Positions 12,070-21,617 of a stretch of 23,103 nt of DNA are shown here, piece after piece. Within the stretch, counting starts at the first letter, position 1, and the number at the start of each line of letters is the position of its first letter. The position numbers were made by a program, and so were the translations under genes. Under the pieces are notes generated by a model. That model ran no database searches and had not been told where the DNA came from. It was given only the letters and a program-made list of their open reading frames with translations. This DNA is from a virus, in the IMG/VR virus record IMGVR_UViG_3300010339_000016, positions 1 through 23,103 of that record, one strand, 5' to 3'.

Positions 12070-13092
12070 TTAGCTTACGATCGCTTCGTTCGTGGCGATG
12101 CGCTCGCACATCCTGATGGGACAGCCCTGGAATAGCGACTGCTGGTGCCCCCACACCTCTTCCTTCGTGTAGAACTTGGCAGAGTTCGAGATACCGTAGC
12201 CGGTAGCATCGATCTGCATGTAGGTGAACACGAAGCGGGGGACGTAGATGACGGCGCCGTCGAGGCCGTCCGGGAGCTGCCCGAGCGACTTGAGCTGGAC
12301 CGTGGAGGTCCAGAAGGCCGTGGTGGTGATGTTCGCCACGCGCTGGACCTTGCGGGGATCGGCCACGCAGAGGCCGAACTGGATGATGAAGTGGATCACG
12401 TAGGCCGTGTAGGGCTTCGAGTTTGAGTCGTACACGAGTTGCTGGCCCAGGTCCTCGACCTTGACGAAATCCTGCCCGCCGTGCGGGTAGACGAAGAACA
12501 CGCCGTCCTGGCCCCATACAATCGCCCAAGTGGACGACTGCGCGTTGGCGCCGGATCCGGCGTTCGAGATGACGTTGTACCAGGGGTTCGTCCCGATGGT
12601 GTTGAACCGTGCCGCAAGACCTTGGATGCGGAACGCCGATCCGCCGCCGATTGCCGTTGACGGACCGACGCCGACCGCGGCGTTGGCAGTGTAGTTGCCG
12701 TAGATGATCCTGTCGTGGATCGTCTTGACGAGCCCTCGACAGAACCCGTCCACCTGCTGCTTGAGGTACTGCTGTGGGTTGCGGCGCTTGGAAAGGATGC
12801 GCATATCGATGCGCAAGTAGTCCTCTAGGCCCTGGATTATCTCGGTCACGGGGGTCTGTGCGTACACGTCCCAGCCCACGCCGAGGTTGATGATGGAGTC
12901 CACGCCCACGGGCTCGGTGAGAGCCTGCATGAAGTGGTGGGACTGGAAGTCGTCAGCTTCCATCCAGTACCCTTCCTCAAGGAATGGTACTCTCTGAGAG
13001 AGGGTATCCACGAGGTTAAGATCGGCGCCTTGAGCTCCTATGCTCTTGGCGACCTCAATCATTGAATACTCGGTAGTAAATCCGCCAGCCAT
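12070..13092 (-). CDS. Major capsid protein, BPP-1-group type
   Basis: This 340-residue protein lies between scaffold and cement genes. Its centre carries STWAIVWGQDGVFFVYPHGG, then DFVKVEDLGQQ, at about residues 186-215. The arrangement W-G, then V-x-x-x-YP-x-G, then EDLG is familiar from major head proteins of BPP-1-like and other podoviruses and is expected to form an HK97-type fold. The N-terminus has a long acidic helix region (DTLSQRVPFLEEGYWMEADDF), consistent with the N-arm. The GC content is high and the codon choice G/C-ending, as expected for an abundant protein. The ATG at 13092 has AAAGG about 9 nt upstream. The family call is made by eye and would be settled by a profile search. 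Confidence 0.85.
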   Translation of the reverse strand: MAGGFTTEYSMIEVAKSIGAQGADLNLVDTLSQRVPFLEEGYWMEADDFQSHHFMQALTEPVGVDSIINLGVGWDVYAQTPVTEIIQGLEDYLRIDMRILSKRRNPQQYLKQQVDGFCRGLVKTIHDRIIYGNYTANAAVGVGPSTAIGGGSAFRIQGLAARFNTIGTNPWYNVISNAGSGANAQSSTWAIVWGQDGVFFVYPHGGQDFVKVEDLGQQLVYDSNSKPYTAYVIHFIIQFGLCVADPRKVQRVANITTTAFWTSTVQLKSLGQLPDGLDGAVIYVPRFVFTYMQIDATGYGISNSAKFYTKEEVWGHQQSLFQGCPIRMCERIATNEAIVS

Positions 13093-14240: not shown

Positions 14241-14532
14241 TGATTGCCACCCATACTTGCCCCATTGGGACTTCGTTTGCTGCTTCGATAGGCACTTCCC
14301 ACCCGCTCGGTTTTGGGTGCCCCTTGAACGGGCCTTCAGTCAGCGGTTCAAATATCTTGTTGATGACCATTTCTTTGCCGTGAGTGAGCGCATCATTGAA
14401 GGATGCTCTGCTCTTGAGCTCTGATTCCCACATCTTCTTGGTGATGGGATTCAGCATGATCTTGTCGGGAACCTTGCCTGTTTCCTCTTGGCGACGGAGG
14501 ACTTCCTTGATAAGGACGTTGGTGAAACTCAT
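14176..14532 (-). CDS. Small protein of unknown function immediately after the portal (118 aa)
   Basis: The ATG at 14532 overlaps the portal stop by ATGA and has GGAG 5 nt upstream, so expression is tied to the portal. The protein begins with an amphipathic helix (MSFTNVLIKEVLRRQEETG), has a Lys/Pro-rich middle, and ends in a basic tail. KKMWESELKSRASFNDALTH could be a second helix. I recognise no family. Its last 65 nt are also used by the following gene in another frame. Confidence 0.68.
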   Translation of the reverse strand: MSFTNVLIKEVLRRQEETGKVPDKIMLNPITKKMWESELKSRASFNDALTHGKEMVINKIFEPLTEGPFKGHPKPSGWEVPIEAANEVPMGQVWVAINGFDISRSQFGRKIPRHILKG

Positions 14533-16259
14533 TGCTGCTCCATAAGGGCCTCGCCAGGGGACCCCTCTTCAGGAGCATCTTTCCCCTTGCTATAAACTTC
14601 GGCAAGGTTTTGAGCCTGCTGCATCTTCTGTTGTTGCTGCTGCTGCTGGGCTCGCTGCTGCCGAATCTGTTGAACTATTTTGTCGTCCTTGACGATTATC
14701 TGCGGAGCTCCACCTTGGTCAAGAATGTAGTGACCCAGCGCGTCTACGTCGATGAGGTCCATCATCGGCTGAAATACGGGATTTTCTTTTGCCATGGCCA
14801 TCATTTTCGGGACAGTCGCATCGATGCTCTGGCTTTGAAGGAACCGTTTCGCGAACATTGCAACCGGGCCTGAAAATGCAATATCCACGGGCGTTGACGA
14901 GAATGGCATGAGCGAAGGAGGCGGAGGCGGTAGCCGTCCCGCCTTTGCAAGCACCTTGAACGTCTTTCGAATGAGCGGGATAAGATTCTCATTTTGGTCC
15001 CTCGTGACGATGGGCTGAAGGAGGGTCGCCTGCTCCCCTCGCATCGCTTGTACCTGGGTAGCGGTGATCTTCCCCTTCATTTCCGACATCATGGAGAATA
15101 TCTTAGCCTTCATCATTTCCTTCACTGCTGCACGGGAATCTGCCATATTGGAGATCGCGGCTTGAAGTTGTGATGGGAATTGTAAAGGCTCGGCCTTGTC
15201 ACTGGCATTGTCGAGGAAGGAGAGAGCTCCAGGATGTATTTTCAGCTTGCCCTTCATCGTACCGGTAACGAGGTAGGGTGGTTCGACGAGGAGCTGTGCA
15301 GCTCTGAGCTCGGATCGGGCCATCTGGTTCAGCATCATTACGGCGAAGATCGAGTCAATAGCCATCGAGCGAGGATACGGCTCCGTTGTGACGCGCCACC
15401 GAGCGCAGGTAGGGACTTCATCCCGGTCCATGCCTGATTCTTCCAGGATCGTTTTCTCGGAGTCGAGCATGTATACGGAGGCATACTCTTTGTTCTCCGC
15501 GGTTATCTTGGTGATATCCCGCTCGTCTCGTGGAAAGATCGCATGGATGCAGGTGAACTCTTTGTAGGGGTCGTTGCGGAGTTTCTTTAGGTTCTGAGGG
15601 GTGAGTGGCGCATCCGGCCAAAGGTCCATGATCTGTCGTCCCGATATTAGGAACTTCCGATGCCAGAGGTCCGGGTCGCCTTCTGCATTAAGACTAAAGA
15701 ATACTTCCCGAGGCGAGCGAAGGTAGTAAATGAGCCGATTCCTTCTAGCAGACCATTCAGGGCCGTAGATAGTGGAATACCCGTATGTGGCCCTGTCCCA
15801 AGTGCCTTCTGAAAGTTGACTGTAGAAATTAGAATTGTTGATTTCCGTGTCAATCGCACTCTGAACATCATCGAGCCATATCCTTGTTTCCCGCATCCCC
15901 TTGAGCATCTTGCCGCCCGGAGTGGACTCGCGGAAGTTAGGACTCCACCACTTGATCGTGGGAGCCGCGGAATTGCCCTGATAGCCATCTACGAAGTCCT
16001 GTAGGGCCATCATGGCGGTAAGGTCGTAAATCTTGGAACCGACCTTACTGCCGATTTTGTCGCCCGACTTGTTACCCAAATCGTAGTTGGCCCGTCGCCC
16101 GATAACGTAGTCGTCTACGTCATCATAGAGGTCGTCAAAGGGGCGGCGCTTCTCTTCCAGACGCCTCTGTCGCTTGGAGATTTCCTCGGCCAGAGTACGT
16201 TGGTCTTGCATGGACATGGGGTTGTCCGATGCAACTTGGGTAACAGTTAGGTCGGTCAT
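14529..16259 (-). CDS. Portal protein (podovirus head-to-tail connector family)
   Basis: This 576-residue protein fits the connector family (Pfam Head-tail_con, T7 gp8-like and BPP-1-like portals): 12-mer rings at the capsid vertex that serve as DNA channel and tail dock. Supporting signs are an N-terminal helix with LEEKRRPFDDLYDDVDDYV, the WDRATYGYSTIYGPEW segment at about residues 154-169, a PSPR-like RSPREVFF, EVPTCARWRV and YPRSMAIDSIFAVMMLNQMARSEL before the stem and wing regions, and a C-terminal Gln run at about 530-545. The ATG at 16259 follows the previous stop with no gap and lacks a clear Shine-Dalgarno, so it may depend on coupling to the small ORF upstream. The Gln run is encoded by CAG/CAA repeats. 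Confidence 0.92.
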   Translation of the reverse strand: MTDLTVTQVASDNPMSMQDQRTLAEEISKRQRRLEEKRRPFDDLYDDVDDYVIGRRANYDLGNKSGDKIGSKVGSKIYDLTAMMALQDFVDGYQGNSAAPTIKWWSPNFRESTPGGKMLKGMRETRIWLDDVQSAIDTEINNSNFYSQLSEGTWDRATYGYSTIYGPEWSARRNRLIYYLRSPREVFFSLNAEGDPDLWHRKFLISGRQIMDLWPDAPLTPQNLKKLRNDPYKEFTCIHAIFPRDERDITKITAENKEYASVYMLDSEKTILEESGMDRDEVPTCARWRVTTEPYPRSMAIDSIFAVMMLNQMARSELRAAQLLVEPPYLVTGTMKGKLKIHPGALSFLDNASDKAEPLQFPSQLQAAISNMADSRAAVKEMMKAKIFSMMSEMKGKITATQVQAMRGEQATLLQPIVTRDQNENLIPLIRKTFKVLAKAGRLPPPPPSLMPFSSTPVDIAFSGPVAMFAKRFLQSQSIDATVPKMMAMAKENPVFQPMMDLIDVDALGHYILDQGGAPQIIVKDDKIVQQIRQQRAQQQQQQQKMQQAQNLAEVYSKGKDAPEEGSPGEALMEQQ

Positions 16260-16343
16260 CTAGAGCTTCGGGGCTTTGGCGACCGCTCCCTTCTTCGGGG
16301 TTGGCTTTGGCTTCCCCTCGCTCTTGATCTGCTTCTTGGCCAT
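16260..16343 (-). CDS. 27-residue Lys/Pro-rich peptide between radical SAM and portal genes
   Basis: ATG at 16343 opens a 27-codon frame that ends in TAG directly against the portal ATG. The start lies 4 nt after the radical SAM stop, and TAGGAAG precedes it. The peptide (MAKKQIKSEGKPKPTPKKGA, then VAKAPKL) is made almost only of Lys, Pro, Ala and Gly with no Cys or aromatic residue. It fills the gap between two genes exactly and the portal has no clear ribosome site of its own, so it may act as a translational coupler. A DNA- or RNA-binding peptide or a substrate of the adjacent enzyme are other options. Evidence is positional only. Confidence 0.5.
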   Translation of the reverse strand: MAKKQIKSEGKPKPTPKKGAVAKAPKL

Positions 16344-16347
16344 CTTC

Positions 16348-17328
16348 CTACTCTCCCTTGGCGTCCTTGCCGCCATAGTACGAATTGGGCTTCCAGTTTT
16401 TCTTCCTGGAATAAAAGCTGTTGTAATAGTCCTTATGGAACCAATACATCGTTCCGGGGTTGTCTCGGAACTCGATCTGCCCCTGAAAGCCTACTCCGGT
16501 GTAGGGGAAAGGGCAAGTGTCGCATGGCTTGGGAAATACTCCTGCTCGCTGGGATTCCCTGAACCGGGTCATAGTCTCGTTATTGTACACGTCCAGGAGG
16601 TCATCCGTATCGTTCAGGACACCGTAAGAAAGCATGTGATCATTGACTACCTTGTCGTTGTAGGCGCAGGGGACCAGGGTTCCATCCCACCGTATCACCA
16701 TGAACTTGTGGTCGGAGTACTGGCATGGAGCGGTTCGCATACACTCGTCGTTCTCGCCCACCAGCGCATCACCGACGCATACAAAGTCAACACCGGGATT
16801 CCCGAGCCAGTACTGGATATACCGCTCGATTTCGTCCCAGTCTTGCCCTCGCTTGCAAATCTTGAAGGCAATGTCAACGTCTGAATGTAGCTCCTCCTTG
16901 AGAGCAAGGAGTCGTTGAATATTGGTGCGGAGCACTTCTTCGTCCGTACCTGGTCGAGCCTTGACGATGTTGCCGCTCCCAAACAGGCCATCCATCGAGA
17001 CGATGAGCTGATACGCGGAGCTTCCGGGACGCAGGATTTCTCGAAGTACATCGTCCCTCCAAATAGTGAGGTTGGTTGTGGTGTAAAACCGCTGCTTCTT
17101 TTCGTTGAGGTAGGAGACCATTCTCCCGTACTCGGGATTCATGAAGGGTTCCCCATTCAGCCAGGCGACGACCGTGCATTGCCAGGTGATCCGGTCGACG
17201 ATTGACTTGAAGAAAGCGAAGGACATGTTGCCCGATTTCCCATCGTTGCAGAGGGATGGGCAGAACTTACACTGAAGGTTGCAGAGGGACGTAACCTCGA
17301 TATCGACCTGCTGTGGCTGCAATCTCAC
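16348..17328 (-). CDS. Radical SAM enzyme with SPASM-like C-terminus
   Basis: The 326-residue product carries the radical SAM cluster motif C-N-L-Q-C-K-F-C (Cys16, Cys20, Cys23) after a strand VDIEVTS, a GGEP-like WLNGEPFMNP at 56-65, and TTTNLT. The C-terminal part has Cys196, Cys202, an RWDGTLVPC segment ending at Cys221, and CDTC (Cys269, Cys272), a spacing like the auxiliary cluster domain (SPASM). Such enzymes cleave SAM to a radical and often modify peptides or proteins. The substrate here is unknown. I place the start at GTG 17328, in a GTGA overlap with the previous stop and with GAGG upstream. The longer open frame to 17490 only mirrors the 42-residue gene in another frame. It is not a 7-deazaguanine (QueE) type by length and Cys pattern. 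Confidence 0.88.
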   Translation of the reverse strand: MRLQPQQVDIEVTSLCNLQCKFCPSLCNDGKSGNMSFAFFKSIVDRITWQCTVVAWLNGEPFMNPEYGRMVSYLNEKKQRFYTTTNLTIWRDDVLREILRPGSSAYQLIVSMDGLFGSGNIVKARPGTDEEVLRTNIQRLLALKEELHSDVDIAFKICKRGQDWDEIERYIQYWLGNPGVDFVCVGDALVGENDECMRTAPCQYSDHKFMVIRWDGTLVPCAYNDKVVNDHMLSYGVLNDTDDLLDVYNNETMTRFRESQRAGVFPKPCDTCPFPYTGVGFQGQIEFRDNPGTMYWFHKDYYNSFYSRKKNWKPNSYYGGKDAKGE

Positions 17329-17453
17329 TTCTTTTTCCTCTTCACATGTTCCGGGAGTTTCTTGCCCTTCGGCGTTTCCTTCTCGAACTTCTCGGCGAAC
17401 TTGGGATCGGTCGCATGAAGGAACCGACGCTGGACCTTGGATTTCAGCGGCAT
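17325..17453 (-). CDS. 42-residue basic phage protein (MPLKS...RRFL type)
   Basis: ATG at 17453 forms TAATG with the stop of the preceding gene. The frame ends in the GTGA overlap with the radical SAM gene. The peptide MPLKSKVQRRFLHATDPKFA, then a Lys/Glu stretch and LPEHVKRKKK, resembles a group of very short, basic proteins widely seen in phage and prophage genomes (start MPLKS-x-x-QRRFL, end LPE-x-V-K). Their function is not known to me. The tight coupling on both sides makes it a real gene rather than chance. Confidence 0.72.
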   Translation of the reverse strand: MPLKSKVQRRFLHATDPKFAEKFEKETPKGKKLPEHVKRKKK

Positions 17454-17911
17454 TACATACCTCCTGACTTGTCTGAGGCGACGGGGGCATTGGTCTTGTC
17501 CATAAGCCCCTTACCCTTCTTGGGAAGCCATTGTTTCTTCATGGGATCCCACTCGTACTCGATGCCGAGGGTCTTTTCGTTCTTCGTGACCCACTCGGGC
17601 TTTTCAGGGGTGGCGTCCTTGGGCTGCCCGGTTGACGTTGCGCCTGGGGCCTTCGACCCGGGCTGGGGCTGGCTCATGGCTGATGTCTCGTCGAGGGCGG
17701 ACTGTTCGTCTCCAAAATCCATACTTGATTCCCCCGATGTCATGGTCGGCCCCTTCCCGCTGATCTGATCCCCGCTCTTCTTGTCCAGGGCATCGACCGC
17801 ATCCTGATAGGTGTCGAACTCGCCCAGGCCCTCGACGACATACTTCCCTCCAACCTTCTTGATCTTCGGGTTGACGCCAGCCGATCCCATGAGAGAAGCA
17901 ACGTCGTCCAT
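17453..17911 (-). CDS. Unknown protein, small N-terminal domain plus low-complexity linker (152 aa)
   Basis: The ATG at 17911 overlaps the previous stop (TGATG), and GAAGG lies 7 nt upstream. Residues 10-48 look like a compact domain (KIKKVGGKYVVEGLGEF, then DTYQDAVDALDKK). Residues 49-115 are Ser/Gly/Pro/Gln-rich and probably disordered. The C-terminus has a small two-aromatic motif YEWDPMKKQWLPKKGKG. No family is recognised. The gene sits between the large terminase and the portal with other small genes, so a packaging or head-related role is possible. Confidence 0.7.
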   Translation of the reverse strand: MDDVASLMGSAGVNPKIKKVGGKYVVEGLGEFDTYQDAVDALDKKSGDQISGKGPTMTSGESSMDFGDEQSALDETSAMSQPQPGSKAPGATSTGQPKDATPEKPEWVTKNEKTLGIEYEWDPMKKQWLPKKGKGLMDKTNAPVASDKSGGM

Positions 17912-18093
17912 CACTCCACCTTCTCGAAGGATACTCGGTACAAAGCTGCCTGCTGCAATTCCGCGGCGGCCGCCTCGGCGGGAGAATCTACCCCGGATTT
18001 ACCGGCAAGTCGAATCGTTACCGAATCGCCGAATCCGGGGATCCGCTCGATCCCGAACCCGATAACCATAAAGTCAGCCTCAAGGAGCGGCAT
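17911..18093 (-). CDS. 60-residue protein of unknown function
   Basis: ATG at 18093 overlaps the preceding gene by 14 nt and has GAGG about 8 nt upstream. Its TGA forms TGATG with the next gene. The peptide begins with a mixed hydrophobic stretch (MPLLEADFMVIGFGIERIPG), then a strand VTIRLAG, an Ala-rich helix and a short C-terminal strand YRVSFEKVE. A small alpha/beta fold is plausible. I recognise no family. Confidence 0.6.
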   Translation of the reverse strand: MPLLEADFMVIGFGIERIPGFGDSVTIRLAGKSGVDSPAEAAAAELQQAALYRVSFEKVE

Positions 18094-18343
18094 TCCGTTT
18101 CCTCGTGTGCTTCACGATCACAGTGGGGAGGGGAGAGTCCTTCTGGACCTTCTCGAAGCCGTCGAGCCTCGCCTGAATCTCTTGCAGCGCGAGGGCAACG
18201 GCGGTCGGTATTTCCAGCCACTTGTCTTCGTAGGTCGGCTTGCCCTTGTTGTCTAGGATGGGTTCGCTGACGAAAGGATTGATCCGGGGCACCTGGCTGA
18301 AGCTGATCCTGGCCGACTTGTTGATTTCGATTTCGATCTTCAC
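18080..18343 (-). CDS. 87-residue protein of unknown function
   Basis: The start is GTG at 18343 in a GTGA overlap with the preceding stop. GAAGG lies 8 nt upstream. The protein begins with a strand (KIEIEINKSARISF), has WLEIPTAVALALQEIQARLD as an amphipathic helix, and ends basic (VKHTRKRNAAP). No membrane segment or catalytic motif is seen and no family is recognised. Confidence 0.65.
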   Translation of the reverse strand: MKIEIEINKSARISFSQVPRINPFVSEPILDNKGKPTYEDKWLEIPTAVALALQEIQARLDGFEKVQKDSPLPTVIVKHTRKRNAAP

Positions 18344-18597
18344 GAAGCGGCCTTCGGGGGATTTAGCACGGCATCTTCGGCTTCGAGCTTGGCCATGACC
18401 ACAGCGAGGGCGGCGGTGAACTCGTCGTCCAGCTTAATTCCCTCACTGAGAAGGCTCGTCTCGAAGTGGGTGATGTTGAACTTGAGCTGATCGATAGCCC
18501 CCGTCTTTATGTCGTCGAAGTACACCTTGACCTCGGCCTCAGCGGCCTTCACCTTTTCCGCGACTTTCTCCGCGAACCCTTCAATTTCCTTGAACAT
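18340..18597 (-). CDS. 85-residue helical protein downstream of the large terminase
   Basis: I take the ATG at 18597 because AGGAGG lies 6 nt before it. The frame is open 12 codons further upstream but without a ribosome site. The product is strongly helical and charged (MFKEIEGFAEKVAEKVKAAE, then VKVYFDDIKTG, ITHFETSLLSEG, and LDDEFTAALAVVMAKLEAED). It looks like a small coiled-coil or helix bundle. There is no transmembrane helix, so a holin is unlikely. The function is unknown. Confidence 0.68.
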   Translation of the reverse strand: MFKEIEGFAEKVAEKVKAAEAEVKVYFDDIKTGAIDQLKFNITHFETSLLSEGIKLDDEFTAALAVVMAKLEAEDAVLNPPKAAS

Positions 18598-18626
18598 TGT
18601 ATGCCTCCTTCGTTTGAAAAACATGG

Positions 18627-20264
18627 TTACCACCTATCTCTAGGGTCGTATCGCTTGAGGTCTCCTCCATCGTAAGCCTCTTCCTCTTGTTCACGCAAGT
18701 CCTTCCTCAGTTGATCCATCGTGTAGATTTGCTTCATATGGAGCTCTTCGTCCTGACGTTTACGGACGCTGTATAGTTTGGCGCATGCGTATTGAAGGGC
18801 ATCGTGGACGTGGGAGAAGCTATTTTTCATCGGGCTTTGCAGGAACTCATTCGCTACCCCTATTTTCTCGGGATAGACGTATCCTCCAATAAATCCGTTA
18901 ATGAGTCTTGTACATCGGGGGTCGATGAGGATTCCATCGTTCCTGGCAAGCATCTGGTCCACAGACTGAATGCGAGCATAGAGGTTCTGTTCTGATGGAG
19001 TGACCGTGAGTCCGAACTCTTCGAACATGAGTTGCGCATTTGACGTTAACCCTCCTGTGCCGCGGGAGAATCTTCCCCCACCAGCAGGATCGGCATAATT
19101 TGCCGCGATTGTATACCCCGGATACATCTGCTCAAGATCCATGAGCGTCTTTCGGCAGAAGTCGATTATGCCTTCTCGCTCGGAGAAGAACTCCCACAGG
19201 ACTTGAACCGACAGCACTCCTCTGATCTGCAACACGACCGCGGCCGGGAAGTTCCCTGAATTGTCCCACCCGAGATACAAGGGGGTGCCATTCGATTCCA
19301 GGGGAGTCTTGGATACATGGCGAGTCTGCAAGAAATTACCATAGACCACCTTCCCTAGCACGCGGATACCCGGCTTGCCTTCGACGTACATATGAAGCCA
19401 CTCGGGATTGGAACCGTAATCCTCCATGAGGGCGTCATAGTAGCCAGGCTTGAGGTTGGCATCATTTTCATGGGGAGGCTGCCACCAGCCAAGGTATTTC
19501 GAGACGGGCTTCTTCTTGGCATTGGGCCTGGGGCCTGGAACTGTCCACGGAGTGAACCTCCCTGTACCGGCTTCTCTCTCTAGTTTATTCGGATCGCAGA
19601 TTTTAGGGTAGAGCTTATTGGCCTCATCCATGGTCTTTCCATCATGGAGGGCTTCGGCTATTCGCTCCGCGCGGAACGTTTCCCATTCAGGGCCAGTAGG
19701 AACCCAGTTATGCTCCCAGTAAATGTGATGCTCCACGTCGCATGGGTTGGTTGACTCAATTCCAAAACGCACGGGAGATTTCTGAGGATACCGACCAATT
19801 CTTCCTCTGAGCATTCGCTTGACTTCTTCGTTGACTTCAACGGACTCTTCCACCCAGTATCCCGTTATCTCAAGCGACTTGAACTTCTCCATGTCCTCGG
19901 GGCGGTTGCAGGACCGGAATATGAGCTCGACGTGAAGAGGATAGTTGCATCCGACCGAAGGGGGGTAGTTGATAACCATGGTCATGGCCGCGGCGTGCCA
20001 GTCGCCGTATGGAATCCAATCCTGGACCGAAGCAAAGGTCGTGTCCATTAATTCCCGATAGGTCTTGCGAATAATGGCCCACCGGGTGTGCGTCATGCCA
20101 TAGACGTTCGCAAGATGTCGGGGCAGGAGAACGCCGATCTCTTGGATACAAGCCGTTGTTTTTCCCGATCCTACCGGCCCGACGAGGCACCGCATCTCCG
20201 CATCGGAGGCGTGGAACCCCATCATCGTCGGGAGAGGAATGTACGGCTTGCGGTTTATCGCCAT
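18627..20264 (-). CDS. Terminase large subunit (packaging ATPase and nuclease)
   Basis: This 545-residue protein has the full motor plan. Walker A is GPVGSGKTT (residues 29-37). A Walker B-like strand with its acidic pair is ITGYWVEES (133-141, Glu139/Glu140). ESTNP at 170-174 fits the coupling motif. The RNase H-like nuclease has LGWDNSG (Asp334), YADPAGG (Asp392) and HVHDALQY (Asp488) as likely metal ligands. It drives DNA into the procapsid through the portal and cuts the concatemer. The ATG at 20264 directly follows the previous stop without a clear Shine-Dalgarno. Length and motifs are normal and no lesion is seen. Confidence 0.95.
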   Translation of the reverse strand: MAINRKPYIPLPTMMGFHASDAEMRCLVGPVGSGKTTACIQEIGVLLPRHLANVYGMTHTRWAIIRKTYRELMDTTFASVQDWIPYGDWHAAAMTMVINYPPSVGCNYPLHVELIFRSCNRPEDMEKFKSLEITGYWVEESVEVNEEVKRMLRGRIGRYPQKSPVRFGIESTNPCDVEHHIYWEHNWVPTGPEWETFRAERIAEALHDGKTMDEANKLYPKICDPNKLEREAGTGRFTPWTVPGPRPNAKKKPVSKYLGWWQPPHENDANLKPGYYDALMEDYGSNPEWLHMYVEGKPGIRVLGKVVYGNFLQTRHVSKTPLESNGTPLYLGWDNSGNFPAAVVLQIRGVLSVQVLWEFFSEREGIIDFCRKTLMDLEQMYPGYTIAANYADPAGGGRFSRGTGGLTSNAQLMFEEFGLTVTPSEQNLYARIQSVDQMLARNDGILIDPRCTRLINGFIGGYVYPEKIGVANEFLQSPMKNSFSHVHDALQYACAKLYSVRKRQDEELHMKQIYTMDQLRKDLREQEEEAYDGGDLKRYDPRDRW

Positions 20265-20601: not shown

Positions 20602-20882
20602 CTTTCCTCCATTACCAAGCCGAACTCAAGGGCGTTGTTCAGGACTATCGGGGTCTGCGTTTCCTTCGACTCCCCTATCGCCTTCAGGTCTTGCGATCTC
20701 ATCCGTGAGTGGTTTATTAGATTCAGGAACTCGACTACTGCTCCCCTGGTCGCGTCCGACATCCGTAGACACCGCGCTCCCGTCAGATTCAGCTTGTCCA
20801 GTCCCTGAACTACCACCCGACCGATCATCATCGCCTGTTCCTGGCTCTGGTTCGTCGGGACTCTCACCACTATCCGTTCCAT
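20598..20882 (-). CDS. 94-residue protein overprinted on the small terminase tail
   Basis: The frame is +1 relative to the small terminase and shares 257 nt with it. The ATG at 20882 has GGAGG with ideal 6-nt spacing. The ATG two codons earlier is too close to it. The stop forms ATGA with the next gene, which has its own strong ribosome site. The product looks like a normal globular protein (MERIVVRVPTNQSQEQAMMI, GLDKLNLTGARCLRMSDATR, GAVVEFLNLINHSRMRSQDL), whereas the terminase frame across the same bases is acidic low complexity. Codon choice in this frame is rich in CTG, CGG, GTC and GAC, like the neighbouring genes. No family is recognised. Confidence 0.68.
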   Translation of the reverse strand: MERIVVRVPTNQSQEQAMMIGRVVVQGLDKLNLTGARCLRMSDATRGAVVEFLNLINHSRMRSQDLKAIGESKETQTPIVLNNALEFGLVMEER

Positions 20883-21498
20883 CTTCATCCTCCGCGTATT
20901 TTGCGGCCTGATCCGGGGCCTGAGTAATGCTCCGCTCAGGAATATTCATAGGCTGGACTAGCACCAATTCTGAGCCGGTGTCGTCGTCGCCGTACAATTC
21001 AGGGATTCTTCGAGCCGCGGCCCAGTGAACTTCCCTGGCATGGAGCTCTAGGATTTTCAAGACCCGGTTGAATTGAACCTTGGACAGTTTTTTCCCGTTG
21101 AACTTTCCGGTCAGAAGGATGCTCTCGGTATGGGGGACAATTTCCTCGGTTACGGCTAAAAGGTATTCACGATAGCACTCGTCCCATTCCTGGGAGAACT
21201 CGGGGAAATCGTTCAGCCAGCTCCGCAACGTGGCAGGGTCGGTGTGCGTTTGTTCACATACCTTACGGCCCGAGTACCCCTGGCGGCGAAGTAGGCACAG
21301 CTCGGTTCCTACGTCTGGGGTGTAGTGTGATCCTTCCTTTATGCTGACAACCTTGGGGATGAATCCAGCCTTGAGGCTCTTTTGAAGTCGCTCCTGCTCG
21401 CCCCAGTCCACGGTCGTCGGAAGCTCCGTCGGTCGGGCATTGTGGACGAGGGTGCCTTTGGTCGGCTTCTTAGCCTGGACCTCTTTAGATTGCCCCAT
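20626..21498 (-). CDS. Terminase small subunit (DNA-recognition)
   Basis: This 290-residue protein lies upstream of the large terminase. Residues 61-100 form a helix-turn-helix (TELCLLRRQGYSGRKVCEQ, then DPATLRSWLNDFPEF), followed by helices to about 170, the layout of Sf6-type small terminases that bind the packaging site as a ring. After residue 200 the sequence becomes a disordered acidic Gly/Ser/Asp/Glu tail that is overprinted by another gene. The start is ATG at 21498, sharing one base with the previous stop (TGATG) and with GGGAG upstream. A TTG one codon earlier is not needed. Typical relatives are shorter, so the tail is the odd part. Confidence 0.82.
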   Translation of the reverse strand: MGQSKEVQAKKPTKGTLVHNARPTELPTTVDWGEQERLQKSLKAGFIPKVVSIKEGSHYTPDVGTELCLLRRQGYSGRKVCEQTHTDPATLRSWLNDFPEFSQEWDECYREYLLAVTEEIVPHTESILLTGKFNGKKLSKVQFNRVLKILELHAREVHWAAARRIPELYGDDDTGSELVLVQPMNIPERSITQAPDQAAKYAEDEDGTDSGESPDEPEPGTGDDDRSGGSSGTGQAESDGSAVSTDVGRDQGSSSRVPESNKPLTDEIARPEGDRGVEGNADPDSPEQRP

Positions 21499-21617
21499 CA
21501 ATCTCCCTTAGTCCCAAATAGATAGGTGCGTAGTGCCTCGATGCGATACCGTCTTTCAAATTGACGGATTCCCTTAATACCTAATTTAAGGCGTACAAAA
21601 AATTCACGAATTGTCAT
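21498..21617 (-). CDS. 39-residue basic protein upstream of the small terminase
   Basis: ATG at 21617 overlaps the preceding stop (ATGA) and follows GGAGG by 4 nt. The TGA shares a base with the small terminase ATG. The peptide MTIREFFVRLKLGIKGIRQF, then RRYRIEALRTYLF, is basic and amphipathic. The DNA here is visibly AT-richer than the terminase genes. The start signals are as good as those of large genes. The function is unknown. Confidence 0.6.
   Translation of the reverse strand: MTIREFFVRLKLGIKGIRQFERRYRIEALRTYLFGTKGD

Follow-up and report, generated by a model that had tools for sequence, protein, structure and literature searches.

By its sequence, a predicted radical SAM enzyme of the twitch type, encoded between the large terminase (TerL) and portal genes of an uncultured tailed phage, belongs to a real, well-conserved phage enzyme family; the enzyme is of a known kind, and its location is unusual and fixed. 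Phage radical SAM genes are commonly classed among the auxiliary metabolic genes or as homologues of QueE. A literature search, with most subscription papers outside its reach, turned up no description of an enzyme like this in a phage packaging module.

The window (the whole 23,103-nucleotide stretch analysed, a 23.1-kb fragment from an IMG/VR virus record) carries its late genes, including all features located below, on the minus strand. These run from the small terminase subunit (TerS, 20626..21501) and TerL (18627..20264; phrog_2, E = 1e-20) through five small genes to the radical SAM gene, a 27-amino-acid Lys-rich peptide (16260..16343) and the portal or head–tail connector (14529..16259; PF12236, E = 1.9e-82), followed by two small genes, a scaffold-like protein, the major capsid protein (MCP, 12070..13092; phrog_212, E = 2e-26) and tail genes. 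The five small genes encode u1 (97 amino acids, 18340..18633), u2 (87 amino acids, 18080..18343), u3 (60 amino acids, 17911..18093), for which no relatives were found, u4 (153 amino acids, 17453..17914), which has no cysteine, and a basic protein of 42 amino acids (17325..17453), an 83% identical copy of which precedes the radical SAM gene in contig L012.

The radical SAM gene (16348..17328) encodes 326 amino acids and starts where it was originally predicted to start, reading from a GTG at 17328 to 16348, with the GTG overlapping the stop of the 42-amino-acid gene as GTGA. A longer open reading frame reaching 17490 was rejected, its extra part merely overlapping other genes. The protein has the complete CxxxCxxC cluster motif (C16, C20 and C23; 17260..17283) and the GEP segment (residues 59–61) of the original prediction, and matches Pfam Radical_SAM above the curated cut-off (E = 1.3e-8; 35.6 bits against 29.5), placing it in the radical SAM superfamily.

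Pfam SPASM also matched above its curated cut-off (E = 2.7e-8), so that the SPASM-like region that had been proposed stands as an auxiliary-cluster domain (16513..16725). Its type is narrower than that name implies. A strict SPASM domain has the seven-cysteine motif CX9-15GX4C-gap-CX2CX5CX3C-gap-C and two auxiliary clusters, while a twitch domain is a truncated SPASM with cysteines for one auxiliary cluster (PMC6231123). Because the protein holds only CX13GX4C-gap-CX2C, the first half of the motif, and the further cysteines are absent, we class the domain from sequence as a predicted twitch and not a full SPASM. The four cysteines of this half motif (C202, C221, C269 and C272) are, like C16, C20 and C23, invariant in all 20 aligned rows of the phage family, with no cluster cysteine lost in any of these rows. 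A fifth well-placed C-terminal cysteine, as first proposed, did not hold up, C158, C184 and C196 not being conserved in the alignment. Beyond the twitch domain lies a tail (residues 276–310, YTG.G..G...F...DYYN...S; 16399..16503) that is conserved in phage members; alignments of cellular relatives (246 Planctomycetota genomes) never extend past profile position 279, and on present data the tail is thus a phage hallmark.

An AlphaFold2 model built on the 20-row alignment gave a confident radical SAM fold (pLDDT 91.6, pTM 0.89); this, together with homologues 48–65% identical in the same genomic slot, rules out a chance match. Foldseek with the model returned SuiB first and BtrN second (2e-11, TM 0.67 on BtrN), with CteB, SkfB, anSME, EpeE and ChlB also among the matches. 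BtrN, a radical SAM dehydrogenase with a twitch domain that acts in butirosin synthesis, was the best PDB match by phmmer and one of the two best profile matches, aligning at both the SAM-cluster and twitch regions with scores above noise, as judged from the alignments shown for the top matches. It shares with the phage enzyme its size class, radical SAM core and four-cysteine twitch, whose four invariant cysteines in the phage enzyme agree with the fully ligated auxiliary cluster of BtrN. The likeness to the BtrN family is at profile level only (roughly 16% identical residues when the folds are aligned); the conserved C-terminal tail is an extra of the phage enzyme, and BtrN comes from an antibiotic cluster, whereas the phage enzyme does not. 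The RiPP maturases SuiB, SkfB and CteB have the overall radical SAM and SPASM/twitch fold in common with the phage protein, but the latter lacks an N-terminal RRE and an adjoining precursor peptide, and SuiB and CteB have a full SPASM domain. The best family-level similarity in the core was to TIGR04317 (tungsten-oxidoreductase maturase) and NF033640 (twitch radical SAM), at 72 and 47 bits, far under curated cut-offs of 380 and 170 bits, and no tungsten oxidoreductase gene was seen in the window. A tblastn search of isolate phage genomes with the window protein at E = 1e-5 gave no match; weak plasmid matches were used for gene context.

The position between TerL and portal, as originally described, is kept. 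A portal-based search found ten other contigs with 66–72% portal identity, the next relative being at 23%, and in 10 of 10 a radical SAM gene occupied the same slot, after the TerL–u1–u2–u4 block where that part was present. Searching with TerL led to the same picture. The sample is thus 11 metagenomic contigs including the window, several of them near-identical, or about seven distinct phages (all genomes compared were metagenomic), and none of the 11 had an empty slot. In one relative (L002:375-2771 and L003:2-829), we also observed a TerL with a large intein-like insertion and an overlapping HNH-like frame on the same strand.

Although the slot is constant, the genes that fill it do not form one clade. 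The slot has homologues 48–65% identical to the window protein as well as the more distant one of L012 (29%), and in the tree the genes of the window, L004, L010 and L013 grouped with that of L020, those of L002 and L006 with that of L005, and that of L012 with that of L030, where L020, L005 and L030 are phages of other kinds. Monophyly of the slot genes was rejected (AU test, p = 3.9e-7; 1.8e-4 without L012). Comparison with TerL agrees: TerL is most divergent in L004 (63%), whose radical SAM protein is nevertheless the nearest one (65%), and L012 combines a 71% identical TerL with its 29% identical enzyme. The gene has therefore been exchanged at least twice, from three sources, with the slot kept. 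That the slot was refilled at each exchange is the strongest evidence for need, and phages of the window's clade appear, from these comparisons, to need the enzyme.

Elsewhere the link to head genes that was expected at the outset loosens, members of the same family also turning up, in other phages, among tail, early or sugar genes. The family gene separates TerL from the portal in L025, whose head module is unrelated, and lies between an HK97-type portal and protease in L021 and L023, among tail or spike genes in L005, L026 and L029, in early regions in L008, L020, L024 and L027, and in a sugar cassette with epimerase and transketolase neighbours in L030. Cupins resembling mannose-6-phosphate isomerase (M6P-isomerase-like) were found near it in L023, L026, L028 and L030. 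Remote relatives sit in glycan cassettes of ctQWt234 (between MCP and a tail gene), Roseibium (rfaE2/rfaD), Lawsonia, Brocadiaceae (L015) and viruses L031–L041; the bacterial relatives in sugar clusters are just 22–30% identical. No neighbour was common to all enzyme-carrying lineages, which weakens the idea of a single co-encoded protein substrate. Small genes that always travel with the enzyme, another early expectation, were not found family-wide: u1, u2 and u4 accompany it in the window's clade, and outside that clade only u1 does so, in L020.

Several of these loci have features of their own. A homologue of u1, a small helical gene, immediately precedes the radical SAM gene in the exonuclease/replication region of the unrelated phage L020 (L020:6156-7401), as if the pair had moved together. 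Two divergent family members occur in tandem in L026:9986-14046 and L029:2242-6570, followed by a B12-type radical SAM gene (AprD4/HpnJ/P-methyltransferase-like). The complete 40-kb genome of ctQWt234 (MW202801; L081:5920-10583) has, between its capsid and tail genes, a glycan-type cassette of an Fe/S oxidoreductase, two glycosyltransferases, PhyH, a methyltransferase and a NodB-like protein. Phage radical SAM genes are in addition adjoined, one at a time or in series of at least about four, by proteins that join an ordinary part to a Cys-repeat region (CxC or CxxxC; up to 35 cysteines in about 200 amino acids), at L005:6702-8521, L053:9430-11293, L057:6505-11750, L036:8440-15741, L038:16006-16509 and L047:3376-4164. 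The enzyme beside the Cys-repeat protein in L005 resembles PapB/CefB ranthipeptide-type maturases, and these loci look like a separate phage system that modifies Cys-rich, possibly tail, proteins.

A second gene was associated with the family across its longer contigs. Among the 9 family contigs that reach 36 kb or more, 7 had a PF01973 (MptE-like) gene, in one case under the curated cut-off, as against 0 of 20 control contigs (Fisher p = 2e-5; 1e-3 with related phages collapsed). The controls, a small set, were random IMG/VR contigs of 30–96 kb drawn via an arbitrary 14-mer; radical SAM genes occurred in 2 of the 20. A profile of the phage PF01973 proteins matched 5MU5 (3e-9) ahead of MptE (8e-4); we take 5MU5 to be Maf, the chain itself being listed just as an uncharacterised protein. 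The copy from the window's clade matched PseD, a flagellin modification protein. It is this co-occurring gene, and not the radical SAM enzyme, that we liken to Maf/PseD-type flagellin glycosyltransferases; the phage proteins are shorter than Maf and PseD and are predicted transferases. They are 19–28% identical to the window-clade copy, apart from a 74% pair inside that clade, and a reciprocal search with that copy returned only its two source phages. In the window's clade the Maf-like gene lies in a separate operon on the opposite strand, outside the window fragment, and in G021 it lies between a weak match to a major tail protein family and the tape measure. A second gene family beside the radical SAM genes of L025 and L029 was considered as a Maf-like relative and dropped as unsupported (hhalign probability 0.2). 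In G011, the gene after the Maf-like one encodes 196 amino acids that resemble TerL in its N-terminal ATPase part (L063:1293-1883), a full TerL also being present, and two early proteins open with repeated Ala/Thr/Pro-rich stretches that seem to derive from a simple DNA repeat (L063:8592-11258).

We tentatively propose, short of holding it probable, that this phage-specific family consists of twitch-type radical SAM oxidases acting on a sugar-type substrate that feeds glycosylation of a phage protein, perhaps of the virion. The substrate that BtrN oxidises is an aminocyclitol, and the second electron is believed to go to the auxiliary cluster of BtrN (PMC9012708); by analogy with BtrN, we suggest a two-electron oxidation, or an epimerisation, of the phage substrate. 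The SAM cluster would generate a 5'-deoxyadenosyl radical to abstract hydrogen from the sugar-type substrate, and the auxiliary [4Fe-4S] cluster would accept a second electron as a hydroxyl-bearing carbon is oxidised (or epimerised). The phage Maf-like transferase, or one of the host, might then attach the altered sugar to a protein, the most plausible acceptor being a concurrently made virion protein. The similarity to BtrN, the four twitch cysteines, the co-occurring Maf-like gene, the sugar-type neighbours and the remote relatives in glycan cassettes favour such a role. Counting against it, no sugar gene was found within the 23-kb window and the Maf-like gene belongs to another operon on the other strand; 2 of the 9 long contigs lack that gene, several of the phages are related and the controls number only 20. 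The structure model of the Maf-like protein reached a pLDDT of just 38, and the bacterial relatives in sugar clusters are distant. Twitch and SPASM domains also occur in peptide enzymes, SkfB being a twitch peptide enzyme (PMC6231123), SuiB was the top Foldseek match, and the same paper warns against reading function from sequence clustering.

The main rival is direct modification of a phage or host protein by cross-linking, epimerisation or side-chain oxidation, the target coming from the late operon, which we judge possible but somewhat unlikely. It draws on the presence of SuiB, CteB, SkfB, anSME, EpeE and ChlB in the Foldseek results, on the placement of the family gene mostly among late genes (TerL–portal, portal–protease and tail) and on L005, a carrier of the family that also has a true SPASM-type maturase beside a Cys-repeat protein. 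The window itself offers little of what a RiPP maturase would have around it. The protein begins at the radical SAM core, and neither it nor its neighbours carry an RRE; there is no Cys-rich peptide in the window and no small partner shared by all lineages, which counts against a classical RiPP arrangement, and the family gene is placed among early genes in L008, L020, L024 and L027. A Cys-thioether RiPP in the window was rejected, the Cys-rich product being absent; a precursor without cysteine would still be compatible with the data. Peptide or protein modification as first put forward is narrowed: the enzyme's direct target may be a sugar, and a route to a virion protein, direct or via glycosylation, keeps its place.

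Less likely again, and in our view improbable, is an action in the course of infection on a glycan of the host (surface or storage) or on some other small molecule, for superinfection exclusion or metabolic takeover and not for the virion. The polysaccharide-type cassettes in which remote relatives, both phage and bacterial, are found and the B12-type radical SAM neighbours in L026, L027, L029 and L030 would fit such a role, but the late packaging operon and the 4-bp coupling suggest late expression, an odd time for remodelling the host. Nucleotide or DNA chemistry or counter-defence, in the manner of viperin, QueE or base hypermodification, is very unlikely: the weak local matches to prokaryotic viperin and QueE models span just the shared radical SAM core, far below NCBIfam cut-offs, leaving the twitch domain and tail as extras, and inspection of genes in the window and close relatives revealed none for queuosine or base modification. 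A QueE, viperin or defence identity was accordingly rejected (phrog_2076, E = 0.0025; viperin, 0.0012 and 18 bits against a cut-off of 180; pVip, 3e-6, core only), and the separation from QueE drawn in the original prediction is borne out. Least credible is a selfish or passenger (moron) gene using the TerL–portal slot as an insertion site, as the repeated exchange there and scattered placement elsewhere could suggest, set against 11 clade contigs without an empty slot, invariant catalytic residues and tight overlap by neighbouring genes.

A radical SAM class fixed inside the head-packaging gene order, in a slot refilled on exchange, argues for a function that the phage needs. It is conceivable, though we think it unlikely as a whole, that many unrelated phages share a phage-made glycosylation route for virion or other phage proteins, in which an unusual sugar, oxidised or epimerised by the twitch enzyme, is joined to a structural protein by the Maf-like transferase, the twitch enzyme being a required part of the packaging–portal block in the window's clade. 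If the enzyme does feed virion glycosylation or modify a virion protein directly, radical chemistry would join virion maturation.
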